Positions 3,720-63,371 of a stretch of 64,000 nucleotides of DNA are shown one piece after another. Source of the DNA: Endomychus coccineus. Lineage: Eukaryota > Arthropoda > Insecta > Coleoptera > Endomychidae. The position numbers and the translations under genes are program-made. The notes under the pieces are model-generated. The model made no database searches, was not told the origin of the DNA, and saw nothing but the letters and a program-made list of their open reading frames with translations. The stretch spans positions 35,134,297 through 35,198,296 of the forward strand of contig OY294068.1 of NCBI GenBank assembly GCA_958510875.1, in the 5' to 3' direction. How positions within the stretch are numbered: position 1 is the first letter of the stretch; each line of letters starts with the position of its first letter.

Positions 3720-3737
3720 TTTATCTATAAGCAACAT

Positions 3738-5817: not shown

Positions 5818-6701
5818 TAAAAATGGAATATTACAAAGTAACGGTTTTATTCCAATTTCCAATGAACATAGTGTCATAGAGTCTATCTCTAGGAATTCGG
5901 TGCTTACTTGAAGTCAATTCCACTGTCAAGTCAATTCATTTATATGTGAATGTAGAATAGTTGAATTTATTATATAATTTATGAAAGGAATAAAACACAA
6001 ATTTAAATTTACACGAACTGCAAATTTATAAATTTAGGATCGTTTTGTCACACAGTGACATTTTCATAGCGAGTTACCAACAGTTATTCCATAGATATCT
6101 ACTAGTTATCTATGAGTTATTCCCACACAGATCACAGAGTCAGAGAGCTAGAATAATTCTCCAAAAAATATAAATACATAATTTTAAATGAATTTTTAAA
6201 TTTAGGAATGTTCATTTGCATTTTTGACGAAGTATTGATCAACCATAAGTACCATAACCAAACCAGGCTATGGTTGGATCAACTATGAAAATATTTTTTT
6301 AAATAAAAATTCTTTTATAGTAACAATAACAAATTTATGCAGCAAATATTACCTCTATCGCATGTAAACAATTATTATACATGTATGTAGGTACTCTTTT
6401 TATCACAGTGTATTTTGTATTACCAAATATCCTAAGTCATTATTATCAATGTTGAGGCTATTACCAAGATGATATGAATGACTTGCTTTTACTTTAATTT
6501 ATTGCTTATTGGTTATAATTCAAAGTTCGTCGACTCGCGACTGCGACTCCCCTCCATTCCGAATTGACATTTTTCAATATCATCGTATAAACTTTCTTTT
6601 AATTGTTTTATTTCAAGTCAAAACTTCCATGATCGTAGTTTATCTATAATTATTACATGCAAGCCATAGGTCAAAGTTTTAGGGAATTATTTTAAAAAAC
6701 A
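5818..6701. other. Right part of the exu/Mfe2 intergenic region
   Basis: AT-rich sequence holding the presumed Mfe2 promoter and 5' untranslated region. Just before the start codon there is a GC-richer patch near 6525-6570 (CGTCGACTCGCGACTGCGAC). The only structure I recognise is the short palindromic insertion at 6090-6114, listed separately. Confidence 0.4.
6090..6114. mobile_element. 25-bp palindromic P-like excision scar
   Basis: The 25 bp start CATAGATATCTACTA and end GTTATCTATG, so both outer ends are tips of the family C terminal repeat (CATAGATAACTCTACTAC). It is flanked by an exact 8-bp direct repeat AGTTATTC at 6082-6089 and 6115-6122. Two terminal-repeat tips with nothing between them, plus an 8-bp duplication, is what P-type excision leaves. 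Confidence 0.75.
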
Positions 6702-9700
6702 ATGGGTGATTTACGATTTGATGGAAGAGTAGTTATAGTTACTGGTGCTGGAGCAGGTCTAGGAAGAGCCTATGCACTTTTATTTGCATCAAGAGGTGCA
6801 AAAGTAGTAGTCAATGATTTAGGGGGTAGCAGACATGGTGATGGGAACTCCTCGAAGGCAGCTGATAAGGTTGTAGAAGAAATCAAAATTAAAGGTAACT
6901 CAAAACACAGAATGTTTTTGGTATAAGTTAACATTCTGGATTGCACATGCAGGTGGTATAGCTGTAGCTGACTATAATTCAGTTGTCGAAGGAGAAAAGA
7001 TTGTGAAGACTGCTCTTGACAACTTTGGAAGAGTTGATGTTCTTGTGAATAATGCCGGAATATTGCGAGATAAAAGTTTCGCCAGAATATCTGATCAAGA
7101 CTGGGGTAAGAAAATACATCTTAATTTAATAAGAAGAATAATAGTTAAAACTTACATATTACATATCGAAATTACAAACCATTTATAAAACAAATCTGAC
7201 ATCTACCGAGTCAAGTTTTGAAACTAAAAATATTGTTACTGTAACTATGACACTAATAAGTCATCATAACTAATGTACATTGTACATTAAAGCTTTTGAT
7301 TTTTAGAATGGGATTATGTGGGTATACTTATTGGGTTAAGAAATAATTCTTATTTCTGTTATATTAAAAATAACTCGTACACTTTTATGAACAGGCATTC
7401 TTATATAATCTTCTTTTTTCAAAATACCAAAAATAAATCTTAAACCTGCTAGAAATATTTTCCATATCGAACAAATTATTTTGATATTATAAATAAGAAA
7501 TAATCATCCTTCAGCTACCGGAATGGCTATGTGGTAGCTGAAAGGTCCCTTAGAATTTATTAATTATTTTATTTATTGAGGTGTTAATACAACAATTATC
7601 AATACATGACATTTGCCCTGCTGAGATGGGTACTCCAACTAAGCACAGGCCTGATTCTTAACAATAATAACTTAAAAACTAAATTATAAATTCTAATTAA
7701 AACCTATTTCCAATTGCACATTTTTTCCTTATTTAACTAATGAACATTAATCAATCATTAAACTGAATCTTTTTGATAAACTTAATTTATTGCATTTTTC
7801 AATGAAATTTTTACTAATTATATTTTTCCGGTTTACAGCTGTTAAGTTTTTCAAGTTCTTAAAATTATTTGGCAATGCATTAACCAACAATCTCGCAACA
7901 TATCCATTTCTTTGTTGTCCCACAGTTTTGTAACATTTGATTATACTTAAATTATTATTCCTTGTAAAATTTCTACTTCCATAATCAGTATTTAAATTTA
8001 TATAATTGTACAGCAATGCTTCCAATTTGTACTTTTCTTTTATTGTAAGTAACTTATGTTGCTTAAATGGTTCGTCTAGTTCAATTGTTGAATCTTTAAA
8101 GTATATTATTTTTAGCACTCTTAATTGGATTTTCATTATAGGTTTAATATATTTATTATAAGTTCCCCCCCATGCTAGTATTCCATAATAAACTATTGAA
8201 CAGAATAATGCAGCACCTGCAGCAACTCCGGGGTCCCCAAAATGTATCTCAGCAGTACTTTAACAGTATTTTTTTTAGTGGATAAGGGTGATTATTTCTT
8301 ATTTATTCTGAACTCTTTTATAGTTCATTTTGATATTGATTCATTTATGATGATTCTGAATTGAGTTTGGAGGGCAACGTATTTCTCAAATTACTTAGTC
8401 CTTATTAGGATGAGCAGTGAATATGGTGATCACAGCCTGGTCAGTTCCTGAATATGTGGTGAAGTGACACATTTCATAATATGGCTGTGACATTCATAAC
8501 TGGTATATCCAAAATAATAATGCCCGAAACAAAAGTTTGCAGATGTTGGCCTGCTAAACAGTAGTTCACTGATGTTAGTGGAATTGATCAGTTTAATTTT
8601 GTTCTAAAAAAATAGTGACTCAATATGGGTATGAAGACTGGCTGCTATAATAATGAGAAATAAAATATAAATACATACAAAACGACATTAATAGTTAGAA
8701 AATAGTATCCTTCAGATACCTTCCAGAAGTTAACAAGTACAATTCACCAAGCTCTCATGTTTGCTTTAGGTCTGCTGAAGATGACTACCTAGTTGCCAAA
8801 CTACACATTCAGATTTCTAAATATTATAATTTTATTCTTTAGATTTGGTACACGCTGTTCATGTTAAAGGTAGTTTCAAAACTACTCAGGCTGCCTTTCC
8901 CATCTTCAAGAAACAAAACTATGGAAGAATTATCATGACAGCTTCAAATTCCGGAATTTATGGTAACTTCTATTTGAATCATTATTAGACAGAAACTAAT
9001 TTTGTTTTACGTAGGTAACTTTGGACAAGCAAACTATTCTGCTGCAAAAATGGCTGTGATTGGGTTAGCTAATACAATCGCTATAGAAGGAAAGAAAAAT
9101 AACATTCATTGCAATGTCATTATACCAACAGCAGCAAGTCGATTAACTGAAGATATCCTCCCACCTGATATGTTTGATGAACTGAAACCAGAACTTATTG
9201 CTCCAGTGGTTGTGAGTACATTAACATCTACCTGATTTATGATCATCTTGATTTTGAACAAATTTCATGAAAATATTTATCTGGAATTTCTTTGTTAGAA
9301 AGTGTCTTATCAAAAATATGTAAAATTCTTAAGAGGCGGCGTCATAAGAGATTGAGGAAAGCTTTTATAGGTCAACTATAATTTCCCAATTTCGTTAAAT
9401 TTATTTGTACCATAACGGAGATCTCTCAAGTCGATTGGAGCCTCCTTAAATAAATTATTTAAAAATCAGTAACGAAATCAAATGATTTGCATAGAGTAAC
9501 TTTGCCACGCAACTCTAGTTCTGTATTGAAATATAATCTATACAAGAAAAAACGAACATCTACCAATTAACTGCTGACCAAATACAAAGAACCATAATTT
9601 TTAGGCATACCTTTGTCATGAGAGTTGTGAAGAAAATGGTGGTTATATAGATTCGGCTGCTGGTTGGGCTGGAAAATATCAAATAGTTCGATCTAACGGT

Positions 9701-15700: not shown

Positions 15701-18700
15701 TTCAATTCAGTGGAGGAGGAAACAAATAGGGGGAAGCAGTGCTTCTGATATAATATTACAAATTAAGAAAAATCCCTCATTTTTAATTAGCAATGCAGAT
15801 AATTTAATTTTGCAAGTACTAATTTGACTGAAAGTAACATTTCGATGACAAATAATGTAAAAGTTATTACTGAAGTCCAAAAAATTTAATTCAACAACTT
15901 TTGCTTATGCTGCTTAGTCATCAATAATAATAGTTAATCTAACTCTATTTAATTGATTATCTATTTAAAAAAAATTGCGATGTAAATATGTATTATAACT
16001 TAATTCTAGAATTTTGACGTTTTCTCCATGTTAATAAGGATTTTCTTGGAACAGTAATGATTGATAGAAGTGATAGAATTAGCTTTTTGGAGTTTTTAAA
16101 GCTGAGTTCGGAGAAAAAAATTGCCTTAAGTAGATAATTATGATACAAATTGAAGAAACTAAAATCTAACACTTTTTGATCATCGCAAATGGTCCAAAAA
16201 AATGGTAAAAATGGCCAAAACCGGTCGGATTGAGTTAAAAAAAAATCTTCTAATAAGCTTATGCGCCGTAAAAAGAGGGAAAAAAGGAGCTGCGGATGAA
16301 CCCGATTGGTCCAGCGGTGACCCCGTAAATTGCAAAAAAACATCGATTTCGCTCGAAAAACTTTTGTAAAATGGCCCTAAAAAAGTTGTGGTGCGGTAAC
16401 GCGCTATTTTTGATGCTTTCGAATAATTATAAATTCATATGCACATACAATCGGAATGACTTAATTAAATGTCTAACTCTTGAACTTTGGAATTTATTCC
16501 GAGTCTAAAGGTTCATTCTCTCTTACAAGAGTGGAAGTGCGAGTACAAAGTACTACAGAGAAATTTCAAATGCAAAGCAACGCACCGGGATAACGGTAAA
16601 ACTGACGATGTACTGGTACAATGTTGTCGGTATTTGTACACATTGTGTTTTATCAAACCCTATTAGAGGGTATTGGTTTTATCCATTGAAATAATGGTAA
16701 GTCACTATACCCTCTACTGTAGAGGGTATTGACTATACAGGATCATTCACGGTGAATGGACTATTTTAGATTTACGTAGAATATGGATATCTGAATCTTT
16801 TGTTTGCAGCGTTGCCACTTTTATTAAAAAGTAACAAATTCTTTGAATTTTTGTACATTTCTATATCTAATGTTATATTTGAATTATCTATGTAATTATA
16901 AATAACTTTACTCGATGAATGCCTATGTTGCACCGTTTTGAAATATTAATTATTTTATATTTTTTATTGGCAAAATATTACTTTGAAAAGATATTCATGT
17001 CTTCATATTTTATAATTTTCGAAAGTTTAACTCCCGGTAATAATTAACTAGAATCCTAATGCTTTATATCTCACACTTAAATCTTAGGTGCAGTATACAG
17101 AATGGTCCAGTAATATTTTATTTCGGTAGGTTTAGAAAAACCACCCGTTTTTTTTTTTCGAATGAAATATCCTGATGTTTTTCCTTATTCACAAAGCTCT
17201 TTAAATTTGCTTATTCTCTATGTTCGGTGTTCCCATACCTAACTTCAATAGTTATTGACTTATGAGCGTTTTGCAACGTTATATTTACGTCGTTTTGTTG
17301 AATTTGTTATGGGAATAAAAATGTAGAATAACACTGAACGCGTTAGAAATCATTATTTAGTAACATCGTTATAAGTGTATCAAGAGAAATTCGTTCGCCA
17401 TTACCAATATATAAGGCATTGTATTCCGCATCGGCTGTTTATAAACACAAAACATCCGGCAAAAGAATATAAAATTTAATTTCTAATGAGGCCAACAATT
17501 ATCATGTTCATGAACAGTATGTTGAATATTTGTTCCACCTCAAACTAGGTAAAAATGTCGGATATTCTCAGCAAAAAAATCATTGTTACAAAAACTTTAA
17601 AACATGAAAATAAGATTTTTACTCAGTTTATTTGCATAATATACATAGCATAATTTTTATAATGAGATTTTTGCCCAATTTGAATTTATATGGACAAATT
17701 TGAAATACGAATACGAATTTCAATCTACGACAATGAAAGGTGGGGTTGTGATGTCATAATATCAGAGTTATTTTAAATAATTATAGAAATAACTATCGAG
17801 ATAACTCTGTAGTGTTTGACTCTGTGTTTGTTCAATTTCAAATCGTGCGACAAAGGCAGAGCGAAAGGTGGAAGAAGAATAGTAAACTTCTCGTTCGCCT
17901 GAAATTCTCAACTTGTCTTTATATATAGAACTCTTTGGTTAGCAGTAGCTTTATAATGGACCTAACTGGTTGCACAGATGTTCATGAATGGGTTTCCATT
18001 GAGTTAGAACCACGGTCGTATATACAGGTCTGGAAACTCGAGGCTGTTTCGTATGTGAGAAGTGAGTCTGCTAAGCGTCATCTGTTGCGTAGTACCAAAA
18101 GGGTGGCGCATGAGTCGAGGGATGTTCTCTGGCACGTATACGACCGTGTTTGAACCATAGTCAAAGTATACCAGGTCTGCCGGAGCCTCCCTTCCATCGT
18201 TTCTCGCGCTGGGTGACGTCACCCAGCTCCTTCAATCACAGCCTTGCTCTCATCAGCTCGTCGCCGGCACGTAACAACATCATATTATGTCGTCGTCTAT
18301 GACATTAATGATATTACATAAACGACCAATCAGATTGCACTGAAATTTTAAAAAGAGTAGAAGGTAGGCTCCGCCAGACCTGGTCTACTTTGACTATGTT
18401 TTGAACGATATGGCGCCTAATCCTGACAACATACTTCGATTCATGCGCCAGCTGGTGACTGAGCGAGGGACTACGAGTTTGGCGACATGTAAGAGACTCA
18501 TGTCAAAAATAGAGTTTCCAGACCTGTATATACGACCGTTGTTAGAACTCTATGGATTTCTCACATTTTGCTCATTTGACATTTTCAAAGTTTCAACAAA
18601 TTCTAACAATTAGGGAATAAAATAATTGGAAAGAAGTAAAACTTGCGACCTTTAATTATTTACGTTAAATATATATCGATTGAACTGAAAATAACGATAC

Positions 18701-21700: not shown

Positions 21701-21979
21701 CTATGGTGAATAAATTTATTTAAAAGAGATTCTTTCTTACACAAACTTGTTATTTTTTCTATTGCAGCAATGGATTTGCCAAATGCAAAAGTTTTCCAGG
21801 GCACACCTGAAGGTAAACCTAACACAACATTGACATTATCAGATGAAGATTTTGTAGAATTATCGCAGGGTAAACTCAATCCTCAAGTTGCTTTCATGAA
21901 GGGAAAATTGAAAATAACTGGAAACATCATGCTTGCTCAAAAATTGACTCCCCTACTTAAAGCTAATGCCAAACTATGA
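6702..21979 (+). CDS. Mfe2: Peroxisomal multifunctional enzyme type 2 (D-bifunctional protein)
   Basis: Eleven exons: 6702-6894, 6953-7105, 8843-8962, 9015-9211, 9605-9923, 9985-10272, 11826-12020, 12075-12229, 12421-12538, 19263-19451, 21768-21979. All have GT-AG borders and consistent phases and give 712 residues (human HSD17B4 is 736). Residues 1-300 form a short-chain dehydrogenase: TGAGAGLG at 14-21, NNAG at 97-100, catalytic S150, Y163, K167. The middle is the MaoC-type enoyl-CoA hydratase 2, with [11 protein letters not shown] at 485-495 (D490 and H495 catalytic). About residues 580-712 form an SCP2-like lipid-binding domain ending in AKL, a PTS1 peroxisomal signal. The enzyme hydrates enoyl-CoA and oxidises the 3-hydroxyacyl-CoA in peroxisomal beta-oxidation. 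Introns 2, 6 and 9 hold transposons; intron 9 is 6.7 kb. Confidence 0.96.
7555..8240 (-). mobile_element. LINE 3' fragment in Mfe2 intron 2
   Basis: Minus-strand translation gives the C-terminal part downstream of a non-LTR reverse transcriptase. [18 protein letters not shown] (8135-8210) is followed by a 129-residue open stretch (7747-8136) with the typical end pattern Y-x-S/T-R ... N-x-LP. The lower end holds an A/T-rich 3' tail. The reverse transcriptase core is missing, which fits 5' truncation at insertion. Confidence 0.7.
9452..9511 (+). repeat. Dispersed repeat, copy 1
   Basis: About 60 bp beginning near AAATTATTTAAAAATCAGTA and running to GAGTAACTTT. It recurs with few changes at 49195-49247 in the vulcan intron. 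Its class is unknown. It lies in Mfe2 intron 4. Confidence 0.55.
10490..11790 (-). mobile_element. Decayed LINE reverse transcriptase in Mfe2 intron 6
   Basis: Read on the minus strand, 11640-11700 gives [15 protein letters not shown] (reverse transcriptase block with the first catalytic Asp). Then 11090-11400 gives [19 protein letters not shown] and [14 protein letters not shown], where the usual Y-x-DD box reads YSDD. Near 10600-10680 there is GRPRWF, as in C-terminal parts of this class. Several stops and frameshifts break it. The segment 11440-11610 between the blocks is unrelated and may be a later insertion. Clade not assigned. Confidence 0.65.
12850..13366 (+). mobile_element. Internally deleted LINE in Mfe2 intron 9
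   Basis: The reading [20 protein letters not shown] and [10 protein letters not shown] (12880-13107) marks reverse transcriptase blocks. The sequence then jumps directly to a C-terminal tail (YDTRNKCHF, near 13125-13160), so the catalytic YADD part is deleted. The 3' end is AATAAA followed by (CTATT)n at 13344-13366, a microsatellite tail as in CR1/Jockey-type LINEs. It is related to the LINE at 40086-41804. Confidence 0.75.
13344..13366 (+). repeat. (CTATT)n microsatellite, LINE 3' tail
   Basis: Four to five tandem CTATT units directly after AATAAA at the 3' end of the preceding LINE. Confidence 0.9.
13407..13451 (+). repeat. (AC)n microsatellite followed by a C-tract
   Basis: About twelve AC units (13407-13430), then CCGAGCG and a run of 14 C (13438-13451). 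Length is likely polymorphic and error-prone in sequencing. Confidence 0.95.
13849..14092 (+). repeat. Tandem direct repeat, unit about 130 bp
   Basis: The unit starts with CGAGGTCGCTGATAACGAAT at about 13853 and recurs at about 13983 with CGAGGTCGCTGATCACGAAT. Both units go on to a CTCGACAT ... CAAA ... CACTAGCGTA-like end. This looks like a non-coding transposon-derived repeat; class unknown. Confidence 0.6.
14332..14393. repeat. Short inverted repeat (about 60 bp)
   Basis: CAGTGGCGTG near 14334 and TACGCCACTG at 14384-14393 are imperfect inverted copies around a 40-bp spacer. This is the look of a tiny MITE or a fragment. No target duplication was identified. Confidence 0.4.
14394..17900. 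other. Mfe2 intron 9, middle: no gene seen
   Basis: AT-rich intronic sequence. It contains one copy of a dispersed repeat (14885-15110). At 16707-16729 there is a 23-bp palindrome with arms ATACCCTCTAC, without a target duplication. A 116-codon open frame at 15993-16343 (minus) has Phe/Leu/Lys-rich content, no family resemblance and looks like chance. Confidence 0.5.
14885..15110 (+). repeat. Dispersed repeat E, copy 1
   Basis: Shares blocks with copies at 29401-29600 (inverted), 29612-29825 and 33225-33480: TGGATTCTTGATA, TTTCTGTTCGTTTCG, GGTGCNATA-GGACGCTT, CTTCTGNTGATGGTCGTGAG and ACCGAAAC. No coding content is clear. The family is probably a retroelement 3' region; I could not place it. 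Confidence 0.65.
17914..17935. repeat. Lone end of family D transposon
   Basis: TATATATAGAACTCTTTG, preceded by TTGTCT, matches the right terminal repeat of the bounded element 31752-32485. No partner end was found nearby, so this is a broken copy. Confidence 0.5.
18011..18540 (+). mobile_element. P-like element family A, copy 1 (contains family B)
   Basis: The left end is CACGGTCGTATATACAGG and the right end is its complement, except that the last base is T. The exact 8-bp target duplication GTTAGAAC lies at 18003-18010 and 18541-18548. The first 138 bp (18011-18148) are the same module as the whole element 31418-31555. The THAP exon seen in copies 2 and 4 is deleted. A second element is nested at 18156-18398. 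It lies in Mfe2 intron 9. Confidence 0.85.
18156..18398. mobile_element. P-like MITE family B nested in family A
   Basis: Terminal inverted repeats CATAGTCAAAGTATACCAGG and, complementary, CCTGGTCTACTTTGACTATG bound 243 bp. The target duplications are GTTTGAAC (18148-18155) and TTTTGAAC (18399-18406), a 7 of 8 match. No coding potential. The CATAG start and 8-bp duplication fit the P superfamily. Confidence 0.8.
19452..21767. other. Mfe2 intron 10: no gene seen
   Basis: AT-rich intron of 2.3 kb. Open frames here are short and of simple composition. I recognise no element in it. Confidence 0.5.
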
Positions 21980-24433
21980 GATAAAATAACATTCCTCACC
22001 AGTGTATCAATTTTTGTACTATTCAATGTTTGTGGAGGTGTTTTACTTTTAATTTAGCAATTGTTGAGATTTTATTGTTTTATAAATATGGTCCCTGTTT
22101 TATTACATAATGTTTTTGAAATATATTATCTGTTTATGGTATTTGAGTACTTTTACTTTTTACTACAAATTAATAACATGGCTAACTTCTCCAAACAGAC
22201 AGCAGTGTGAATTTGTATAATTGATGATTTCTATACTTTTAAATTACATCTCAATTCAACAATGATTTGCATATCTGTGAAGTCGAATAAGAGAATATGC
22301 CACTCATTTTTTCGCAGTTCTGACGACCTTTTTGGATACCTCAATCTTCAGAAAATACCTCTTGTATTTTATGTAATGAACCGTTCTTGGTAAGTATAAA
22401 AATGCTAAGCCAGCTTAAGGTAACCTGCTTGTATACTTCATCAATTCAATACAGAAGGCATACATAACAAAATAATAAATTTGGTGAAAATTAACTTTTC
22501 CATTTCCAAAAAATTTGCAATGTTCTAAGTTCCTTTTATATTTTTTACAGGTTACTTATTGTACTTTCCAGATTGTGAGCACTTTTAAAACTGAGACCAG
22601 AGTTGTCAATCCTATAATATAAATATTGAACTAACAACCATTGCCAAACTCGCTTAAATACCACAAGAAAAAACTAACATTTTCGCAGAAGCGTTTGCAG
22701 CAATTTATAAACCCATTGCATTACTATATGAGAATTCTATAGTAATGGAGAAAGCAATCAACAATGAGTTAATTGAAATCTTACGAGCACGAAAATCGTG
22801 AACAACCGAAAATATTGCTTTCGTCACCAGAAATCAACTCCTTATGTAAGACATATGGCAGGCAACCATTAAAGAAATGGCAACTAAACAGGCTCCTTGG
22901 AACCGTAGGAATCCGTGTATAACGTGATGCGCGTACTCTACTCGTCTGGGTAAAAAACCATAGTAAGTGATCAACCTGCCATTTCGAATTAGATCATAAC
23001 ATATGTCGGTAATCTCGAGCTGCAGCATTATGTCTCCAAAGTAGTTGACAGTCTTTCACAAAGGCCTTCTTGGGAATCTTCCAGGCATATGGTTCCGCCC
23101 AGAGCGTTGCGCATGATTGTGCATTTGATATCGCTTTCTCCTCTAAAACCTCATATTATACATTGAAGATATTATACAATGAAGATTGGCAAAAATTTTG
23201 AAAAGGGTACGAGTTTAATGTAGCAAATATTCAAGCTTGTATTTCAAGTTCATTTCGAGTTTCATTTTCAAATATTCATATTCATATGAAGTCCTAAATA
23301 TCCATGATCGGTATCATCACTCTCTCATGGGACGATCATGTAAGGTCCATTGCGAAAGCTGCGTCACAGAAACTTGGTTTTCTAGTGCCAAGAGCTACTT
23401 TACACACAAGTAGCTCCTCATGATCTACAAAATAGATTCTACCTGTCCTGGAGTACTGTCAACATGTTTGAAGTTCACCTCCCAAAAGATACGCTAAAGC
23501 TCTTCGATTCTATTCAGAAGTACGAAAAACGAGACAAAATTGTGAAAATTCTGATTTCTTGTTAAAGATGACAAAAGTTTGGCTAGGCAACACTTTTCCG
23601 AACAGTACGAAAAAAAGTTTTGGACCAGCCTTCGCATCCCGAGCAAATATGTAATTTGGAATAAGCGGAGGAATTGCAGCCGCTAGTAATGTAGTAATTC
23701 ATTGCATTCTCCTGTCATTCAAACATAAATTTTGATGTAAATGATGTTATGAGTAAAATGTAAATAAAACCCCCCCTAGCGGAAAAACTGTTCATTTCTC
23801 GGGGTTTGCGCATGAATAAAATTTGTTCAGAATTACATGGACTACATCATATCAAAAATTCAGAAATATCCATCGAGACCCAATTCCTGTAAGGAAATTT
23901 GTGGGGTCCTTTGATGTTCTTACCCTTTTACCTACCTAACATTTTGATATTTTCTATCTGAAATTTATTTGTGTAAGGACTAGGGAGCAGCAATAGATTT
24001 CTGGCTTTGATAAGTCATTCAACCTAAGACAAGGGTGGAAGGAGAAATCGAAACCATGAAAGGAGAATGAAAATCACATCTTTGATGTGATCAGTCTAAA
24101 ATTCAATGACCAAAAATCCTTTGTTTTTCATTTCTGTCTACATTGTGATACTGGAATATGATTATTTTTGTATCAATTAGATATTTTATATTTATAATAA
24201 TCGCTAATTCGGTTTTGAACTTGAATGAGTGGGGAATAATTATGTACAATTAAAAATAATCAAGTTAATTGCACGTTATTACAAATTAAGTTAAAAACAT
24301 GCTTTGGGATGATTTCTTTTCTTGTAATTAAGAGCTAAATGATGTTACTATTGTGTTTGTGGAATGTTTAAAGCATGTTCCAATAAATTGCTATTAGTAT
24401 TTTGCTTAATTTTGTTTTCAATTACTTCAAGTA
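21980..24433. other. Intergenic region downstream of Mfe2, with a decayed LINE fragment
   Basis: This lies between the convergent Mfe2 and Rad51 genes. It starts with the Mfe2 3' untranslated region; I saw no perfect AATAAA, though ATAAAT occurs near 22082. A broken LINE fragment (plus strand) is at 23290-23560. Nothing else was recognised. Confidence 0.45.
23290..23560 (+). pseudogene. Decayed LINE C-terminal fragment
   Basis: The plus-strand reading gives LSWDDHVRSIAKAASQKLGF, then VPRATL, and after a frame change VLEYCQHV and PPKRYAKAL. This is the region after the reverse transcriptase of insect LINEs (W-x-x-H-V ... K-x-L-G-F-L ... LEYC). It is short and heavily decayed. Confidence 0.6.
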
Positions 24434-25316
24434 CCGGGATATCAAAAATTATTTTGGTCAAGGGTGATTGTGGAATCTAAAACGTGTGTCTTACTTCACG
24501 TTTGAAATAATTAATTAATTATGTCACTGTCACACTGGCATCATCAATAACCTACAAATTTCATACCTATTTATTTCAGTTGTAAAACAATAATGAACTA
24601 CAAATTATGAAATAACGGTTTTAGTAACAATAAAAACTAAATTAATTGTTGGAAAGTCCCCAGTTTTGTTCGATGCACAAACTTGACGCGCATCATCATG
24701 CTGTGCAAACCGTTTTGCAGCATTTCTGGCGTTATGGTTGCACATTGCTGAACTATTCCTCTTCCATACGTTGACGAACGTCATTGACAACTTCTTCTGT
24801 ACGAACTCTTGGTCTACCAGCACCTTTTTTATGAGTCACACAACCAGTTTCGCGAAACACTTCAACACAATTTGTAAGGCACCCGTAAAAATTGTCCGGT
24901 AATATTGCCACGTTTGGGAAGTGCTCTCGAAAATTGTCCAAACACAAACGTTGACTGTATTGCCAATTTCCGTTAATTAGCGCACCCGTTCGAAAATAGG
25001 CTTCAATCATGAAACTTTTGTGCTGTGTGGTAAGAGGCATGATTCAAAAACTGGATTAGAAAATTTCAGCACAATGACTTAACATATTCAAAAATTTAAA
25101 GTAAGACACACGTTTTACATTCCACAACCACCCTTGACCAAGATAATTTTTAATTTGTAGTTCATTATTGTTTTACAACTGAAATAAATAGGTATGAAAT
25201 TTGTAGGTTATTGATGATGTCAGTGTGACAGTGACATGATTATCTCAAACGTAAAGTAAGACACACGTTTTAGATTCCACAACCACCCTTGACCAAGATA
25301 ATTTTTGATATCCCGG
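24434..25316. mobile_element. Long-TIR mariner-like element
   Basis: Starts CCGGGATATCAAAAATTAT and ends with the complement. TA duplications stand at 24432-24433 and 25317-25318, as in the Tc1/mariner superfamily. The inverted arms extend about 170 bp. The right side holds an extra copy of the terminal 60 bp at about 25095-25150, so the right end is partly duplicated. An HTH-type protein is encoded on the minus strand at 24753-25040. Confidence 0.85.
24753..25040 (-). pseudogene. Transposon HTH domain (DUF4817-like), truncated
   Basis: 95 residues start MPLTTQHKSFMIEAYFRTG. They continue with a cysteine/tryptophan helical part and end in VFRETG, KKGAGRPRVRTEEVV. This is the typical N-terminal helix-turn-helix of insect mariner-like transposon proteins. 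No DDE catalytic part follows inside the element, so the copy is non-autonomous. Confidence 0.7.
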
Positions 25317-25908
25317 TAGTAGGCTATAGATAATATTCTCATACCATTTTGCCTATTCTTTTACAGTTATCACCTCTGTCAATGATATATTCAACTTCTG
25401 TGAATTAGCTGTTATATTTTTGTTACCCTTTCCTAGATGGCACACTCGTAATTTAAAAGAATCAAGTTGAACATAATGAGTCTCACATTATGCTCTCCCA
25501 TATATAGGTAACAATACATTTAACCACAATTTTTCTTTCTTAATAAATGTTATTCAAATAAAACATTTAATTATTATGTAACCCATCGCATATATTTATT
25601 GAACAAGATAAAAAGTAACAAATATGAAAATATATATGCTAATTCCTGTTCTTATGCTCTTCACCCAGTTGTAACTGTCTTGGTCTAAGCTGTCACATCT
25701 TCATACTAGCATCAAGACTGGTTTTTCAGATAAACAAAATTTAATAATTTAAGTAACAAATTTCCTATGACGGCACAAGAGGTTTTCATCCCAAAATATT
25801 AGTCTTAAATTTCAATCAACGCAATTCTTAGCATTAAAAAATTAAATACTTTATAGTCAAATCTTAAATTAATAACTGGAAATGATGAAGTGATATATTA
25901 ATCAAGAG

Positions 25909-31192
<5,284 letters not shown>

Positions 31193-31385: not shown

Positions 31386-31583
31386 CATAGAGGTAATATA
31401 TACATATTACCTAGAGGCACGGTCGTATATACAGATCTGGAAACTCGAGGCTGTTTCCTATGTGAGAAGTGAGTCCTCTAAGCGTCATCTGTTGCGTAGT
31501 ACCAAAAGGGTGGCGCATAAGTCGAGGGATGTTCTCTGGCACGTATACGACCGTGTCTAGAGGTAATATATATCACCTCTATG
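31386..31583. mobile_element. P-like mini-element family H, interrupted by family A
   Basis: The ends CATAGAGGTAATATATA and TATATCACCTCTATG are inverted copies. Flanking 8-mers GCTTCAAC (31378-31385) and GATTTAAC (31584-31591) match at 6 of 8. Without the inserted family A module and one target copy it is only about 52 bp. It sits about 200 bp upstream of the Rad51 start codon. Confidence 0.6.
31418..31555 (+). mobile_element. 138-bp family A module (copy 3)
   Basis: The whole element equals the left 138 bp of copy 1 (18011-18148). It starts CACGGTCGTATATACAG and ends ACGTATACGACCGTG. Target duplications CCTAGAGG (31410-31417) and TCTAGAGG (31556-31563) match at 7 of 8. The right end is not the normal family A right end but the scar found inside the left half of copy 4 (53396-53411). 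It lies upstream of the Rad51 start codon and may touch its promoter. Confidence 0.8.
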
Positions 31584-32181: not shown

Positions 32182-32189
32182 GTAAAATG

Positions 32190-35532: not shown

Positions 35533-38500
35533 TCAGCTAGATTCAGGCACAAATATTTCTATATCTTGTTTTTTGTTCTGAACTTTCATAGCTTTCCTCT
35601 TTTCTTCTATCAATTTTCTCCGTTCGGCCTCTCTTTGTTTCCGTGCTTCCTCAGTAGCAGTATTTACTTTTGAGCGCGGTACCACCTTTTTTACTCTGTT
35701 CCCATTGCAGGCTGGCTTTTTAATTTCTGGCTCTGACTGTAAAGAACAAGAATATTGTGAATGAGTTTTGCTTTTAAGCAGCAACCTATAATTAACTCCA
35801 CTTTGTTGAGGCCTTTCTATATTTGTTTCACAAATAAATAAAATTTAAATATTAAATAAGGAAAGCAGCATTATTCTAAAATTAAAAACTTGGATATGAG
35901 GAGGCCTTCACATAGAAAATGTAGATAACAACCTCTTTTATTCCAGACATTACAGAATATCAGGCCAGAACACACCAAAAAATAATAGCTCATATGAGAT
36001 CCTGATTTACAGATTATCTATTAATATTCGCCGATAACTTACCTCTTTCCAATTATTGCTTTTGAGTTTTCCTATTTCCCTAAATAAAGCATCTACTTGA
36101 TCAACTTGGAGCATAACCATATCCCAGAAACCTTGCAAATCTTCATTAGTTGTTGGGAATGCTTGCCCCTCGACCTGGTAAAAGAACATTGCCTTAGACA
36201 CAATAGATAGGTACATATACAGAGCAGTGCTGGGACGTGGGTGGACAATATAAAGCTTTGTACACCAAATGTAGTTTGTGCAGTGACTGTCACAGGTATG
36301 TTAGAAAAAGACATTAAAAGAGATTAAAGTGAATTGGGTAGCATAAACTTGAAGTATTTATTTATTGCAAGTCCTAGTTGTATGAACAACTTATTTGAAT
36401 GATATAAAAAATGCTTCTCCTTTGGAAGAAAGAATATACAATTCTTGCAAATCGTTATTCGTTCTATGCACAGGAATATATGAATGCCTTTTTGGTTGCT
36501 CCTGTACCAACGTAATCTGTCAACAATAATCACTCCGTCAGTGGTGATCTATATTTATTCGTAGATTAACGATGAGCAAAAAAATGTTAGAAATTAATTG
36601 ATAAATTAGTGAAAAACGAGTGCAGAGATGAAGTGATTACAAGGATATAATAAATAAAACACCGTATGGCGTATGCATTTATTAATTTAACGTCGATATT
36701 AGTACCTTTACCAAAGACTGTTATTTAAAATTTCTTACAGCATATATTATATATAATATATATTATATCTTTCGAGTATATTTGAAAAAATGTTTACCAA
36801 AAAGTGTCGGTACAGACATCGTTCGCCCCACTACTGCATACTACACTTTTGAAACCTGAAACCATAGATAACTCTACTACCGTAGAATGAAATGTCTTAT
36901 GGAAGGGACCAACACTGTCATGGCCGGCGAAAGTATTTTCGCTTCCAAAACACAGGTGGGCGCGTCAAGCGTCCGAAATTAATAGAAATTATAATGCGCA
37001 TGCGATTGTTATTGTTTTTCAATAGTAGCCATGTTTAATTCATTTGTGATTTAGTTTCCATAACGACTTGTTGCTTGCTATCATACACGCTATTTCTACA
37101 ATATTATATATATTATATATATATAGCTAATCATGTACAGGTAAACTATAGGTGAATTGACACTCTTTCAGGTTTTCATGCTGCAAGGTATTGAGGGAAA
37201 ATGGAAACAACCAATTATGTATCAATTTATTAAAGGAGCAGCAAAAACTGAAACCATTAAATGTTCAATTCAAAACATTGTACGATCTTGCAGGGATATT
37301 GGTTTCAATGTGGTGGCCACAATTTGCGATCAAGGTACAAATAATGTCAGTACGATAAACAAATTAGTGAAGGAAACGAAAGAGTATGCAAGAGGAGGGA
37401 AAGAATTATATGACTTCATATTTGAAGTCGATGGACAACAAATTATTCCATTGTATGTTCCACCACATTTACTGAAAGGTGTGTGAAACAACCTCCTAAC
37501 AAATACCGTTCATTACACGCTAAACGGAACTGCAAAAAAAGCTAAATGGCAACTGGATGATGTTAGTGGATACTTGAGAGCAATGCCAAAATTGATTGAG
37601 TTTCATGTAACTCCTGATAAAGTGAAGAAAACGAAGGTATCAATATGTGCTCAAGTTTTGAGTAGAACTGTTGCATCGACTATTAACCTTAAGGCAATTA
37701 ATGGTAAGTTTAATTTGTGTCATATTATATAAAATAAGTGTATATCTAAATCTTCAAATTGCAGAACAACCCATTGTAATTAGTCTCGATATTTAATTGT
37801 ATTTATATGTATATTTTAGGTATTTTTGTTTTAACCCATTGTAATTAGTCCCGATATTTAATTGTATTTATATGTATATTTTATGTATTTTGTTTTAACC
37901 CATTGTTATTAGACACGATATTTAATTGTATTTATATGTATTTTTGTTTTAACCCATTGCCATTAGTCTCAATATTTAATTATATTATTATATTATATAT
38001 AGTCATTTCTATTGTTTTTGATGTTTAATTGTATTTATATGTATATTTTATATATTTCTGTTCTAACTCTGTTGTTGAATAAAAACTATTGGTAAAAACT
38101 ATCGACTTTCATTTCCTACTTAAATTGTAAGAAAACAAAATTTGCATTCATGTGCTGTGTAACTTCGAATTTCCCTCCAAACCATCATTTAGTACGCTTC
38201 CAATCCTCACGCGGCGTTCTTGTCGAGGTTTCGGTACCTAACACGAAACATTTCATTCTACGGCAACGAGGTCTATACCTCGTTGTTCTACGGTAGTAGT
38301 TATCTATGCCTGAAACACAGCCGACAAAGTTGGCTGCGCCTGAAGGCAGTAGTCGGATATTGTGAGAGCATATCCGCTTTAGACGAAGACAACGCATAAT
38401 ACAGACTGTCTCTAGTGGGAGTACATAGTTCGTTAGTATACCTTCTACTACGAAATAAATGCTATTGTACCTTTCATCTTTTCTGACCGAAAAGTAACTA

Positions 38501-41500
38501 TTACAAATCAAACAAAAAATAACTTCGAAATACCTAATGAAAGAACTAAAAATGAATCTTTAAAAAAGAAAACGAAATTTGCAACAATTAAATGCTCAAA
38601 ACGACATCCTTTGTTAGCAAGACAATATCCCAACAGATAAAAAAACTTTGCGGCTTATATTCTAACACTAGCATAATCTCGTATCTAATGCTTTATAATA
38701 TAAATGCTAATGTATATAAATTGGAATTACCGTCAGTTCATATATTAAAGAGAAAAATAGAGCTTACCTGTGTAAGGTTGTTAGTACAAAGTCCTTTGAA
38801 CTGTTGCATTTTCTGTGAGACCAGGAGCCTAGCTTTCCCAGAAGCTGCCCGAAGTATTCCTATGACATCTTCAGATAAATCCGTACTGGTATTCAGTTCA
38901 TTCTCTACACCATCGGCTAACTGCAATAACCTAACTGCTTCGTCTTCCAACACTTTCATGAAGTAGTGGCCGTCCTTCTCTTCTGAAGAAACAGAAAACT
39001 CTTGCACTGTTATTGTGTACATAAGACTCAAAAATTTTGTTGTTAAAAAATCCAATGTTGTTTTTAAAAACCTCGAAAATAAAATGAAATCGGATGTTAC
39101 GAGCATCCCGAATGATTACAATGGCATGTTTGGATGAAAATAATTCCCGAAATAGTCACATTTGTGATAAATATAATAAAATCAAGTGTAAAATTACATT
39201 AGTATTGAATGAATAATGTCACTCATGTCTGAATGACATAGTTGACAGTTAATCTATTGAATGAATAAATAAATACTAATCTCTATAGACTTTATATTAT
39301 TGTTTTGTCAGGGGTAACTTGATAAGTGATTATTATCAATATTTTTTTAGAGATATGAAAAATGCTAGTCCCAATTTAAAATGTAAGTACAAAACTCGAG
39401 TCGTATCTTAAAAAAAAAATCGACAACTAATGTGATCATTGAATATAATTAGGTAAGTACTACTGATTATTGATAATCCCCCCCAAATCTCCAATATGAA
39501 CGAAATAGAGTAAATTTCAATGACATTAGTTCGATGAGTATACTTATGTACGTTAGTTTGCCATGAAAATTAACTAAATTACTAACTTCCCTCACTCTAC
39601 TTTTGTTAATTGAAAATTTCCCTTTCGGGCTCTTCTGCAGGTTAAATGTATAATTGTTAATCTTCATATATTTACTAGACCTCTCCCGCGGAAACAACTA
39701 ACAACCGCAGGAAGAATAATATTTGCAACATATTATTGTACTGATACAAAGCTTATCACTGTGCTATCTATGGATAGCTTTGTCCCAGCTAGTCTCAGTG
39801 GAGTAAGTAACCAGAGCTCTTTGGGGTAGAATGAATAGTATTATATTTGCAGGCTTTAATTGCAAAAAAAAATTCTTGGTTACTTCTTGGCTAATTAAAT
39901 AAATTACACTTCCAAGCAAATAAACATGGAATTTCCTAATAATTAATTTATTGCTCGTTATTGTAGAGTAAGAAGAATTATTGAATATAATCAACAATAA
40001 CAAGGATCACAAGAGCAGAAGGAAAAGAAAAAAACTGCTAAAACAAGCAAAACTTTTCACCGAATGATAAATCTTAAATAAGGAGTTGAGGGTGAGCAAT
40101 CCTGCGGTAGCAAACAATCTACAGTCTATGGACTATGCAAGCACCCCGCGGCACACCAGAAGTCACTTCGTGAACTGTATTATATCAGCCAGAACGGTCT
40201 CCGCTATACAATCAATACAAAAAGGTACTGTATCATACAGTTGTAAATTTAATAATGGTTTTTCTTTAGCTGTGATTAAACCTTTACACAAAAAACTTTG
40301 GAAACTTCAGACCCATAAGCCTATTAACATGCTTCTCAAAAATATTTGAAATTGCAATGGCTCGAAGGAAAGTATCCTTCGAAAACTTCAACATGTTTTC
40401 CGCTCATCAACATGGATATATGAAAAAAAGATCAGTTGAAATAGCTCTGGTTCACTTCAGCAGCTTAGTTCTAGAAGTTTTGGAGACTGGAGACTTGTCA
40501 TGTGGAGTCTTTCTGGACCTATTCAAGGCCTTTGACTGCATTGACCATGATTTGCTATTACATAAACTCTATAAATATGGAGTACAAGGAAAGGGATATG
40601 ACTGGTTAGAGTCATACTTGAAAAAAAGACAACAACTCGTGGAACTCAAGCATGAACATGGTACAGTGGGGTCGGAGGTTTTGGAGACTTCTGTGGAGGT
40701 ACCACAGGGGAGTATGCTTGGCCCCATATTCTTCATTATATTTGTGAATGATATACCGAACACAGTAACTGATAAATCTACCACTAACTTAATAAATTAT
40801 GCAGATGATTCAAAATTTTTTAATATCAGGCTCAGATTTTAAAGATATTATGGAATTAGGCAGTCAAATGCTAGAAAGAACAAAAAATATTTTGAGGAAA
40901 ATAGGCTTGTTCTGAACAACGACAAAACAAATTGTATACTTTTCAAGGTAAATAACAGCGTTGAGACCCCCAACAACATTCATTTCGGTAACAGCAAAGT
41001 AGCCTGCGAATCCACAGTTGAATTTTTAGGAGTACACGTAAACGAAACTATGGACTGGGCAGGACACATAGACAATTTGTGTAAGAGATTGTCATCAATA
41101 ATATATGCACTGAGAGTTCTGAAAAAACATATTGATCATGGTGCACTTATGATGGTTTATTATGGAAGCTTTTACTCAGCCGTCAAGTTTGGAGTATCCA
41201 TTTGGGGTTGCAGCTCGGACTTAAAGAGTTTTTTTATGTCAAAAAAAATCTATTAAACTCATTCTCAACATGAAAATAACAGACACATGCAGAGGGGTCT
41301 TTGGAGCCAATAAATTACTGACAGTACCGGGTTTTTATATTTATGAATGTATACAATTTTTAACTAAACAACCTAAGATTTTCGAAGCTTTTAAAAAAAA
41401 TCACACATACGAAACCAGACATAAAGACAATTTTGATTATCCACTGCACAAAAAAGCACTCTATGAAAAGAACACACTATAAGGCAATGAAATTCTATAA

Positions 41501-52959: not shown

Positions 52960-53084
52960 GATATTCTACAATAAATTCGTCATTTTAGTGTAGAAATATA
53001 ACCATAGATAAAAGTATCACTAAATTACAATCTCGGTCGTATATACAGGTCTGGAATCTCGAAGCTGTTTCGTATGTGAGAAGT

Positions 53085-53324
53085 TATGGGGTTTTCTGAT
53101 ATTAAATCAATCCCATAATAATTAAAACTCCTCGTAAAAATGAAGTGTAAATATGTATGTATATTTATTATTCAATACAATTCAATTATCTTTCCTTATT
53201 AAAATTTATCTCCACGGCAACCTGCCTTCGCTAGCCAAGATACTAGATCTTCTTCTCCCCTCGTTCACCGATACTTCACTGCCATAGAACCTTTGTCATC
53301 GACTTATAATTAAGGGGCGCCACA
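53085..53324. mobile_element. 240-bp insertion in family A copy 4, possible solo LTR
   Basis: The family A sequence GAGAAGTGAGTC is split with AAGT duplicated (53081-53084 and 53325-53328). The insert starts TATGGGGTTTTCTG and ends GGCGCCACA. A 4-bp duplication and TG ... CA-like borders suggest a solo LTR, but no internal retroelement sequence is present to confirm it. Confidence 0.55.
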
Positions 53325-53395
53325 AAGTGAGTCCGCGTAGCGTCATCTGGCGTAGTACCAAAAGGCTGGCGCATGAGTCGAGAGATGTTCTCTGG

Positions 53396-53411
53396 CACGT
53401 ATACGACCGTG
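53396..53411. mobile_element. 16-bp family A excision scar within family A
   Basis: CACGTATACGACCGTG equals the first 4 bp of the family A left end joined to about 12 bp of its right end. The exact 8-bp repeat TTCTCTGG lies at 53388-53395 and 53412-53419. Copy 2 has a single TTCTCTGA at the same point (26350-26357), the unoccupied site. Confidence 0.85.
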
Positions 53412-53476
53412 TTCTCTGGCAACTGTCATTGTTGACTTGTAAACACAAGGAATACCGGCGTTTTCAGAAAAAAATT

Positions 53477-53707
53477 ACGAAACCGTGCATTGTGCCAAAA
53501 TGCAAAACGGGGTACAAAAGTGTAAAGCAAAAAACTCCTGTTTTTAAAGTGTCGAAAGATGCGGAAATGCGAAAAAAGTGGATGCTTGCGATCCCGGAAA
53601 GAAATCGTTTTAACGAGGTCTTTTATGTGTGCGAGCATCACTTCGAAAAAAAATTCTTAAGAAAACAATGCGTCATATATTACGAAAAAGGGGAAGTTAT
53701 TTTTAAG
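53477..53707 (+). CDS. THAP zinc-finger exon of P-like transposase, intact
   Basis: 77 codons, open from ACG (53477-53479) to the splice donor AAG|GTGAGT at 53707. Unspliced, the frame ends five codons later. All C2CH ligands are present: C4 and C9 (C-x4-C, CIVPKC) and C52 with H55 (CEHHF). Also present are the conserved W35 and P40 and a VFKVSKDAEMRKKW core. THAP domains of P transposases bind the internal side of the element ends. THAP-only proteins from deleted P elements repress transposition in Drosophila (KP type). The usual Met is ACG here and also in copy 2, so translation from this codon is uncertain. An in-frame upstream frame reaches back to 53327. Confidence 0.65.
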
Positions 53708-53993
53708 GTGAGTAATACATTTTGACAAGAGTAACAGTTCTATTCCTCTCTCAAATCAGAATAGTAAATATTGCGTTACGAGAAAAATTATTTTACTAAA
53801 AATGTGCGGTTATTATCAATCAATCTTTGTATTGTGGGTCTTGAAATTTGAACGATTTGGCGCCTAATCCTGACAACATACTTGGATCCATGCGCCAGCT
53901 GGTGGCTGAGCGAGGGACTACGAGTTTGGCGACATGTAAGAGACTCATGTCAAACATAGAGATTCCAGACCTATATATGACCGTGATTACAAC

Positions 53994-55142
53994 TCAAAGG
54001 CATGAAACGTTTCTTCATTTATGATTGAAATAGCCGCGAGTTGACCGTGACCTTCCTTCATTATGTGCATGGTGAAATCATAAAAAAATACTATAGAATA
54101 GTGCCATTTGGATGATGAGATACAATATGAACCGTAAAACCTAGCATGTAAGCGCGGTAATCGGTTAACTTCAGATTTATGACAACTTAATGTTGGTTCT
54201 GGCCTGATACCACGATATGTCGTACATAACGCAAGATGATGAGATTATAATAATTATATTGTCATTGATATACGTTCATAGAGTATATTATAACATATGG
54301 AAAGTTCATAATACTACTTTAAATTTGAGCGAGTCAAAGGGCCACCACATGCTTCTCGAATGTTCTATAAATTTCACACAATTTCAAGTGATTAAAAAAT
54401 TGCACAATGTGCAATTAAGGCAATGACGAGCCGATAACTACAAGTACATAGTTAGTACATGATAAAGGTGTGATATTATTTTTCAAAGCGGTCCTTCGCT
54501 CACACAGAACTCGAATAGCACTAACTAGAATTTCAACGTGAACTACAATAGTCTAGGAATCGGAATACCTCTATGAACCGATTGTCGGAGCTTCATCTAT
54601 GTATTCAATTCGTAATCTAAGAATCGCTTACGAAGAACTACAAGTTTAGGTAAAAGCACATACAACTTTGAACTTGGGATTAAAATTAAGGTCTAGCTCA
54701 CATAGAACCTCTGGCCACAGCTTAATAAGCTGTGCTCTGGCACCACTTATGAATCTGTTTCCACAGATATATCATGTGAAAACCATGAATTACTTACTGG
54801 TCTATTATTTTATAGTTTAAATTTTAGCGATGAGCAGGCCTTGCCATTAATTGACTATATATACCACGAACAAAATGCAAGTTTAAGAAATCTATGAATT
54901 GTATACAAATCAATTGTTTTCAGAATTGTTGCTCAGTCAAAATTTTTGTAATCTTCTAGTGTATCTCTGTAAAATTTTGAGTTTACTTTTATTCAAATTA
55001 ATTGATAAGAATAACGATCGATAGAGAATATCCTTTACGATATTGCAACCGTTGAGAAGCGAAATTCAAGATTTAGAAAAAATTTACCAAGTCTTAACCT
55101 AACAGATTCCAAGCCGGGCAATAGATACAGTTGATAAGAGAT
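53994..55142. other. Intergenic, no gene seen
   Basis: AT-rich. It contains the short palindrome 54716-54734 with 7-bp flanking repeats. The last 250 bp precede the Gly-rich ORF and could be its 5' part. Confidence 0.4.
54716..54734. repeat. 19-bp palindrome with 7-bp flanking direct repeats
   Basis: Arms CACAGCTTA and TAAGCTGTG around one base, flanked by CTCTGGC at 54709-54715 and 54735-54741. It resembles the P-like scars at 6090, 38264 and 63219 but has a duplication one base short. Confidence 0.5.
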
Positions 55143-55561: not shown

Positions 55562-55567
55562 AATAAA
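55562..55567 (+). terminator. Polyadenylation signal AATAAA
   Basis: Canonical hexamer about 105 bp after the stop of the Gly-rich ORF. Supports transcription, or descent from a transcript, of this unit. Confidence 0.5.
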
Positions 55568-60699: not shown

Positions 60700-62000
60700 A
60701 CGCATGAAAGTTTTGTCCATATAGTTTTTATAACTATATGGTTTTGTCTCGTGCCTAGACTTATTTGACAGGTGTCAGAGGGTTCCTGTGTTACATTGTT
60801 GGAATCGGCTACTACGACTACGTGACCAAAATATTGTGCGGTGGTCCAAAACTAAATTTTTCAGGTTGCCCACACTGTGAATATGACTATAGAATGCACA
60901 ACAATTAAATGGAATCACAAATAGGGAAATTAGAAACTAGACAAGCGAATGCAAAACGAAATGATGATGTGATTCCAACATTTCGGAAATTCTTGATATA
61001 CATGGGCACGTTATATAATTATCACTACTGGTCATAATTTAATTCTTATTCTTCATTCGAAGAATGGTTGCAACGATGTTGAAATTGATATCATATTCAA
61101 TTAGAAGGCTCTATGAATTGGTACAAACATTTTCATGCACGTGCAAAATAATTTACCTATCATATTCTTCACTCAGGCTTACTTTCATTCACCAAGAGTC
61201 AACTCTGAAAACAATAAATAAGTATGCACCGCAAGCATCAGTTCATTATAATCATTCTAATGTAATGGAGAATTTACATGACATCCTTTGAAACGTCCCA
61301 AATGTATTAAAGTGGAGAGTGCAACGAACTCCAAGAAACTGTAATGACTAACACATTAATAATGTCGAAGACGGTGAAATATGCTCCCTAATAAAGCTAT
61401 CACGATAGTTAGTATTGACAAACGATTACAAGCGGATTAAGTAAAACTTCAAGACATTTCTCTCAAAATCACACAAACCAACCTTTTAATCCATCTAGTG
61501 ATAAATCTATTTAGGCGACGCTTTTTACCCATTATTTCAACGAAATTTTATTACAGACTGGTGCATGTGCATCAAGCGAACATCGTGATTCAGATGGAAC
61601 TGATTCAAAGCGAGGAAATGTAGGAATTCCCTCGGGTGTGTATTTATAGCACCCTAAACTATTCGGATATACTAAGTTTATCACGTGCCAAATCTTAGCA
61701 GATTTAAAACGTTACAAGTCACTTGAATTAAGTTTTGTTAATTTATCTTTAATAAAGATCAACGTTGCACTTAAAATTTCCCCTTCTTAATAAACATGGT
61801 ATGTGGAGAAAATATGACTTTATTATCATCATTAAATCTCGATAGAATTTAGGGATAATTATTCATAGAATGATATCATTAGGTTTAACTTTCAGAAATT
61901 ACAAAGCTGTAACCAAAAATATAGTTTTCGTGGAGATGAGCAGAATTTATCTATATAATCACATCCATTGGACTCATTGGAGGTTGGAGGTATTCATTTA
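60700..62000. other. No gene seen
   Basis: AT-rich intergenic sequence with only short, unremarkable open frames. Confidence 0.4.
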
Positions 62001-62008
62001 TTCAATAC

Positions 62009-62223: not shown

Positions 62224-62436
62224 TTCAACACCATATGTCAGTAGAGGTTAAGCTATAGAGTGATTGTAGTGTTAAATGCGAGGACACAGATGAAGAGTTC
62301 ACGGATTGTCAGACTACACTATACATTGGAGAACCACAGATTGATAGGCCATAAAGCACATACAGCAACCATTACCATAAACTTCCTACATGAACGAGGT
62401 ATTCAAATCATGAATTGGCCTGCGATTAGCTCAAAT

Positions 62437-63371
62437 CACGGTATAATATAATGGTAGTGCGTCTCGTATATTAAAAGCGTAGCCAAAGTCTGTGAACTTG
62501 CAACTCTTGCCGCCAGGATCGCTACAGACGGATGTAAGAGGAGCTATACGGCGCACAGAGGGTAAATTCGCAATACACAACTGCCTAATTCCTCAAAGTT
62601 AGAATATCACAAATCGCTATCTGAATATTATGTACAAGTTGTTTCTGCCGTATACAAGTTATACGGCATATAGTTTTTCCTTAACAATGAATATTACTGA
62701 GATAGATAAGACCATATATTTCCATATTTATATTTGATCAATTTTCGACCAAACATCAAACTCTCACAATCCTATGAATAAATTATGGCATTCCTTCGTA
62801 ATGTCTCATATTTTCATGACAAAATGTCAAATAATATCACATTGAAATTATTTTAACCTAATTTTTCTTCGGTGTGAAATTATCTTACCGAATATCCCGA
62901 GTGCACAAATTAATTTCAGGGAATAATTTTGAACATGGGATATTATAAGTGATAATAACTGATATGAATGATAACACGAGGTAAGATATTAATAACGAAA
63001 GTTGCAAAACTTACAACTTGTCACAAATCTGACATCGCAACTAATACACATTCTATAATTCATTGTAGAAATTTAGAAATAGACGATAACTTTCATAATT
63101 TTCGAGAGTTCAATCCTGGTCAGAGCTCAGGTAGATAACGATTTTGTTTACATTACATGTCGGTAAAAAATTAAAAAATCAGCTTATCTTCGTTCTCGCC
63201 GTTTAGCTCCTCTTACATCATAGATAACTTTACTACCGGTAGTAGAGTTATCTATGTCTTACATCCGTCCGTAGCGATCCTGGCGGCAAGAGTTGTAAGT
63301 TCACAGACTTGGGCTACGCTTTCGTCATGTATAACAGTATACGAGACGCACTACCATTATATTATACCGTG
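62437..63371. mobile_element. P-like non-autonomous element family I with long TIRs
   Basis: Starts CACGGTATAATATAATGGTA and ends with the complement; exact 8-bp duplication GCTCAAAT at 62429-62436 and 63372-63379. Terminal inverted repeats run about 110 bp. The right one contains a 38-bp scar (63219-63256) that the left one lacks. The first bases CACGGT resemble family A. No coding sequence in the 935 bp. Confidence 0.9.
63219..63256. mobile_element. 38-bp P-like excision scar of family C in family I
   Basis: Two 19-bp halves, CATAGATAACTTTACTACC and GGTAGTAGAGTTATCTATG, are tips of the family C terminal repeats fused head to head, with one mismatch. The exact 8-bp repeat TCTTACAT lies at 63211-63218 and 63257-63264. 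The left repeat of the host element has one unbroken ATGTAAGA (62532-62539), the empty site. Confidence 0.9.

Follow-up and report, generated by a model that had tools for sequence, protein, structure and literature searches.

Short palindromes between 8-bp duplications in the beetle Endomychus coccineus are very probably excision scars of P-like transposons

We analysed a stretch of 64,000 nucleotides from the beetle Endomychus coccineus (assembly GCA_958510875.1, contig OY294068.1, positions 35,134,297 to 35,198,296 of the forward strand; hereafter the window), in which very short palindromes running from CA to TG lie between direct repeats of 8 bp. These segments are very probably excision scars, that is, repaired donor sites of P-like transposons, a reading drawn from one assembly. 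An earlier note on this stretch had described four such segments with cores of 25, 22, 16 and 38 bp, and their positions, 8-mers and lengths all proved exact. The window was scanned for exact 8-bp direct repeats flanking a CA..TG core of 12-60 bp with its first 4 bases self-complementary, which added two scars (5 and 6) to the earlier four. Exact 8-bp duplications are present on both sides in 6/6 of them, by construction of the scan. Tips are assigned below to two element families, A and B.

Scar 1, 6082..6122: AGTTATTC, a 25-bp core (6090-6114) with family-B-like tips, AGTTATTC.
Scar 2, 38256..38293: TTCTACGG, a 22-bp core (38264-38285), TTCTACGG; within the right terminal repeat of element B.
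Scar 3, 53388..53419: TTCTCTGG, a 16-bp core (53396-53411) made of family A tips of 4 and 12 bases, TTCTCTGG; within the family A copy 53032-53985.
Scar 4, 63211..63264: TCTTACAT, a 38-bp core (63219-63256) with family B tips, TCTTACAT; within the right terminal repeat of element D.
Scar 5, 4512..4546: ATGACACC, a 19-bp core (4520-4538), ATGACACC.
Scar 6, 60710..60748: GTTTTGTC, a 23-bp core (60718-60740), GTTTTGTC.

For scars 2, 3 and 4, the window also holds a matching unoccupied site, as the earlier note had said, that of scar 3 with one mismatch.

36880..36887, plus strand: unoccupied target of scar 2, CCGTAGAA, in the left repeat of element B.
62532..62539, plus strand: unoccupied target of scar 4, ATGTAAGA, in the left repeat of element D.
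26350-26357, plus strand: unoccupied target of scar 3, TTCTCTGA, one mismatch, in the family A copy 26243-26828.

The eight counted elements make up 8.7% of the window and contain three of the six scars (binomial P 0.011). The core of scar 3 is shared with the family A copies at 18011 and 31418, indicating a single event carried along with the element. Some scars thus sit in other transposons or repeats and were then copied along with them.

We compared these numbers with those given by shuffled sequence. The window held 6 scars against a mean of 0.05 (maximum 2) in 100 shuffles and of 0.028 (maximum 2) in 500 shuffles and, when 6-base tips were required, 5 scars against 0 in 500 shuffles. In a genome sample of 100 kb, taken at round coordinates elsewhere in the 906-Mb assembly, 3 CA scars were detected for a shuffle mean of 0.09, and 2 against 0 with 6-base tips. 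The excess over shuffled sequence expected from the earlier note was thus observed in both. When the CA rule was dropped, 11 matches were obtained in the window, namely the 6 scars, 1 starting with GT and 4 with TT, 3 of these 4 being copies of one repeat; no TG..CA core with 2-base tips was found in the window. We also took all palindromic cores of the window (14-45 bp, tips matching at 7/8 or more). Among 1846 of them, exact 8-bp flanking repeats were found around 5 of the 83 CA-ended cores and around none of the 1763 others, while 8-mers displaced over 120 offsets matched once for the 83 CA cores and 50 times for the full set. By length of the flanking repeat, 1847 cores gave 14 with 4 bp, 4 with 5 bp, 1 with 6 bp, 1 with 7 bp and 5 with 8 bp, all 5 of the latter being CA-ended. 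The shuffle, repeat-length and offset controls indicate that the excess in the window is specific to 8-bp repeats and CA ends.

Natural DNA was used as a further control: loci from viral contigs, prokaryotes and T4, 133,907 bases in all, contained 0 CA scars and 4 any-ended matches. Similar DNA in viral contigs (0; 6 matches) and in 5 prokaryote contigs was put down to chance matches and served only for this control. Relaxing the rule in other ways added nothing convincing: duplications with 1-2 mismatches around short cores gave no extra scars in the window, and cores of 4-11 bp gave none there. Ten window matches one base short of the rule were weak or repeat-like and were dropped, a match at 5113 (32 bp, 2-base tips) was unconvincing on inspection, two further matches with 2-base tips lay inside a tandem repeat, and a match at 1602 of sample locus L059 (42 bp, 4-base tips) was the weakest of the sample and doubtful. 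Two other segments of the window are kept as candidates.

54709..54741: core 54716-54734, CACAGCTTAATAAGCTGTG, between 7-bp repeats CTCTGGC only.
31386-31583: outer palindrome with CATAGAGGTAATATATA tips and flanks GCTTCAAC/GATTTAAC, 52 bp without its insert.

In the second, the duplication is mismatched at 2/8 positions, the middle is possibly templated, and a 138-bp insertion interrupts the palindrome. Extrapolated from the few scars detected, the genome may hold tens of thousands of them.

To see how one family behaves across the assembly, we searched for fused tips of family B (CATAGATAACT..), with A or T outside, both ends exact over 11 bases and a core length of 22-52 bp. The search gave 312+278 matches, and the pattern read in reverse gave 0. 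The 82 distinct sites among the 100 matches listed, all on contig 1, were all inspected, and their 8-bp target-site duplications (TSDs) were exact at 51 and had one mismatch at 12. Among the first 80 listed, the TSD was exact at 50, with one mismatch at 11, two at 7 and at least three at 12; the last two comprise one exact site and one with a single mismatch, whose 8-mers are those of an earlier site. Judged by their flanks, 69 of the first 80 are independent, of which 45 have an exact TSD, with 45 different 8-mers, and 54 have at most one mismatch. These 54 sites carry 33 different cores of 29-46 bp. Two joins recur, a 38-bp CCGG join (10 times) and a 37-bp CCG/TAGTAG join (8 times), and the classes of joins comprise graded trimming, microhomology and apparent templated inserts. 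Fused tips of family A were found at 12 sites of the assembly with 11 different cores of 25-54 bp (reverse-read control 0), the TSD being exact at 8 sites, with one mismatch at 2 and without clear form at 2. That one family shows many different cores at different targets argues for excision scars and not for tiny elements of fixed size, in line with the proposal of the earlier note that these are fossil donor sites and not insertions of exactly that size. It had also taken the tips to match the termini of elements, which was found for families A and B and, within the window, not for scars 2, 5 and 6, as said below. A scar of another family, ACAAAGAG on both sides of a 28-bp palindrome CAACG..CGTTG, was seen at 1279-1306 of locus L048, about 200 bp from a family B scar.

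The intact end of family B (27-mer) has 186+203 matches in the assembly, so that scars and surviving elements of this family are comparable in order of magnitude. For the 19-bp family B tip, 1572+1603 matches were obtained, and such raw tip counts mislead, since many of them are one scar amplified within a repeat. Many genome copies of the 38-bp core go back to that single scar.

We then weighed other origins. Chance has a negligible probability and is already refuted for families A and B. Palindromes are common in AT-rich DNA and, of the 131 any-ended matches in the sample, 120 belong to one TA microsatellite while 8 outside it do not start with CA; against this stand the shuffle and offset controls, the reverse-read pattern controls at 0 and the occurrence of family-specific tips at dozens of independent sites. 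It is very unlikely that units of 16-38 bp transposed themselves and made the 8-bp duplications on insertion. The same 38-bp core does recur between differing duplications of 8 bp (at 10 of the 54 independent listed sites), and we considered it as a mobile mini-element, an idea dropped after the diversity of family B cores had been seen. The 33 cores at 54 family B sites and the 11 cores at 12 family A sites speak against such units. In Drosophila, recurrent identical joins are also known, one join having been recovered 14 times among 66 isolates (PMC2895639), and the transposase binding sites are internal (PMC7776569), so that a naked core should lack them.

Excision followed by repair of the two ends may be pictured as follows. 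In Drosophila, P transposase leaves 17-nt 3' tails (PMC2895639, PMC7776569), and the products of end joining include fusions at microhomology, fusions after trimming and templated inserts (PMC2895639, section 7). Here, the transposase would make cuts with a long stagger at both ends of the element, within the terminal repeats. Each flank would keep, as in Drosophila, the 8-bp duplication and a single-stranded 3' tip of the repeat. End joining would then fuse the tips through microhomology, trimming or short, apparently templated synthesis, a pathway suggested by the spectrum of products, which was observed. When the Drosophila P junctions of PMC2895639 (Table 1) were passed through our scanner, 43 of the 66 isolates were detected, with cores of 16-44 bp and a median of 30, compared with 16-38 bp for the cores of the window.

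The length of the retained tips was studied in the joins of listed family B sites with at most one TSD mismatch, flank duplicates being kept. The three intact family B ends that were compared agree over 32 nt. In 36 of the 38 non-overlapping joins, the longer tip does not exceed 20 nt, and the two exceptions may be read as an insert and a point change. Since the retained tips mostly end at 20 nt though the intact repeats agree for 32, the stagger of family B is likely, if not proven, to be about 20 nt. The 38-bp product can be made up either of two 20-nt tips sharing their terminal CG or of two 19-nt tips placed flush, and it would fit terminal-CG pairing of two 20-nt overhangs. The earlier note had expected tips on both sides with the 17-nt value of Drosophila; the tips are kept on both sides, while in family B they reach about 20 nt each and not 17. 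P families may differ in stagger (about 20 nt in family B, 17 in Drosophila), with overhangs whose terminal dinucleotide, self-complementary in both cases (CG here, TA in Drosophila), would guide repair towards preferred joints; we give this idea an even chance.

The tip lengths also bear on internal deletion by interrupted gap repair, as opposed to direct joining of the cut ends, which we hold to be unlikely, although slightly less so than self-moving palindromes. Incomplete synthesis followed by end joining is common in Drosophila (PMC2895639), and three family B cores at listed sites with at most one TSD mismatch exceed 40 bp (43, 44 and 46). Such deletions predict tips of any length, whereas those of family B mostly end at 20 nt within the 32 nt of agreement. 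Exact 8-bp repeats around CA..TG cores of 61-137 bp were found neither in the window (3- or 4-base tips) nor in the sample (6-base tips), which argues against gap repair, the family B pattern itself being limited to 52 bp.

Elements of the hAT superfamily may likewise begin with CA and duplicate 8 bp of their target, and hAT-like ends were found on two elements (window 1017-2127; locus L057). Excision of hAT elements keeps few or no bases of the repeat; contrarily, both tips are kept in family A and B scars. No CAG..CTG scar was detected in the window or in the 100-kb sample, and family A encodes a THAP domain. A hAT or another superfamily with 8-bp TSDs is thus a very improbable source.

Several observations weigh against the excision of P-like elements as the source. 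The window shows no element that could have given scars 2, 5 and 6, and this single assembly shows no filled allele. Scars are sparser in the 100-kb sample (3, or 2 with 6-base tips) than in the window, where their density may exceed the genome average in part because the reader who picked this stretch had seen the scars. Of the 11 any-ended sample matches outside the TA microsatellite, 8 do not start with CA. Of the 30 loci listed for the family B tip, 25 (at 17 distinct sites) represent a single scar lying in a repeat, its flanks being GTGACAAG/CTTGTCAC, and the fused-tip pattern overlooks sites where both outer bases are G or C as well as shorter tips and longer remnants. The 12 sites with at least three TSD mismatches and the 7 with two, of the first 80 listed, point the same way, as do the 2 of 12 family A sites without clear TSD. 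As for the stagger, 9 of the 23 overlapping listed family B joins are readable as 23-24-nt tips, microhomology making these ambiguous.

The P superfamily is recognised here by CA..TG terminal inverted repeats and 8-bp duplications, several copies having one TSD mismatch. Elements of this kind with perfect duplications start at 26243, 31752, 36863 and 62437; those at 18156, 31418 and 62009 have one TSD mismatch, and a weaker element lies at 21825. The tips of scars 1 and 4 resemble the ends of element B. The elements named in the text are the following.

36863..38308: element B, 1446 bp, left end CATAGATAACTCTACTACCG, TSD CCTGAAAC.
62437..63371: element D, 935 bp, CACGGTATAATATA ends, TSD GCTCAAAT; hosts scar 4.
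53032..53985, plus strand: family A copy, 954 bp; hosts scar 3.
26243..26828, plus strand: family A copy without scar 3, TSD GTATGTGC.
18011..18540, plus strand: family A copy with the scar 3 core; the part right of the scar is deleted and another CA..TG element is inserted at 18156-18398.
31418..31555, plus strand: family A derivative, 138 bp, TSD CCTAGAGG/TCTAGAGG; its right end is the scar 3 tip.

A THAP domain (PF05485, E 8.9e-10) was detected in the open reading frame 53288-53725 of the family A copy 53032-53985, only this family having been searched; a GTGAGT after the domain resembles a splice donor and may be one. A PDB search with the THAP exon gave nothing at E 0.001, and Rfam gave nothing at gathering score. 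Two family A copies have a base change within the terminal dinucleotide at one end. Family B would belong to the P superfamily judging by its ends, its 8-bp duplications and the type of its scars. In the element 31418-31555, the tip of the scar seems to have turned into a new end of a transposon, or else to have undergone recombination with the right repeat. Scars may also be recycled, one riding in an abundant repeat and the tip of another forming the end of this 138-bp element.

Other features were noted in the window. The hAT-like element at 1017-2127 was judged by its ends CAGCGTTGCCAG and has a duplication with one mismatch. Between scars 5 and 1 lies a long inverted repeat (4742-5818), which is imperfect and whose arms measure about 500 bp, and direct and inverted related repeats (24432-27272) cluster around the family A copy at 26243. 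Reverse transcriptase fragments were found at 27853-28350 on the minus strand (a weak match, below the cut-off) and at 40276-40842 on the plus strand. Pieces of exuperantia, an insect maternal gene, lie on the minus strand at 438-881 and 2883-3749 (SAM-like and RNase H-like domains); the named matches of the piece 2883-3749 are Cryptolaemus (81%), Henosepilachna (78%), Tenebrio (76%) and Harmonia (75%), ladybird proteins being closest, which would point to a ladybird or a near relative as the host.

We found no description of a natural genome-wide set of P-type scars in titles and abstract openings, most subscription papers lying outside this coverage. The kind of scar is known from experiment; new, as far as searched, are the natural record from several families, the spectrum within a family and the longer tips. 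P-type scars are recognisable without a donor element, as a CA..TG palindrome set between two copies of one 8-mer, so that a single assembly of a non-model animal could reveal its former cut-and-paste activity, the geometry of the cuts and the way in which it joins broken ends. In this beetle, family B alone provides hundreds of candidate natural junctions, and its apparent 20-nt cut is a testable departure from 17 nt, the sole stagger value found in the parts of the literature covered. If P families do differ in stagger and preferred joints in the way suggested above, the genome would contain break-repair junctions of natural origin in the thousands, their inserts resembling those attributed to polymerase theta, and cut geometry, repair choice and extinct families would be readable without any element present.

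The closest known case is that of the P excision junctions of Drosophila melanogaster, which share kept 8-bp duplications, fused tips, microhomology, templated inserts and recurrent joins (PMC2895639). They differ in being experimental events of one construct with 17-nt tips, while the beetle scars are natural, come from several families and, in family B, have tips of about 20 nt. The P elements and P-MITEs (short non-autonomous copies) of Anopheles gambiae have in common with the beetle elements 8-bp duplications, terminal repeats and a THAP domain (PMC1562414); the word footprint is absent from the main text of that study. Finally, excision footprints in rice were likewise read from genomes and include deletions and filler DNA (PMC4423477). 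They concern plant superfamilies with small overhangs and were obtained by comparing two genomes, whereas P-type scars can be found in one.

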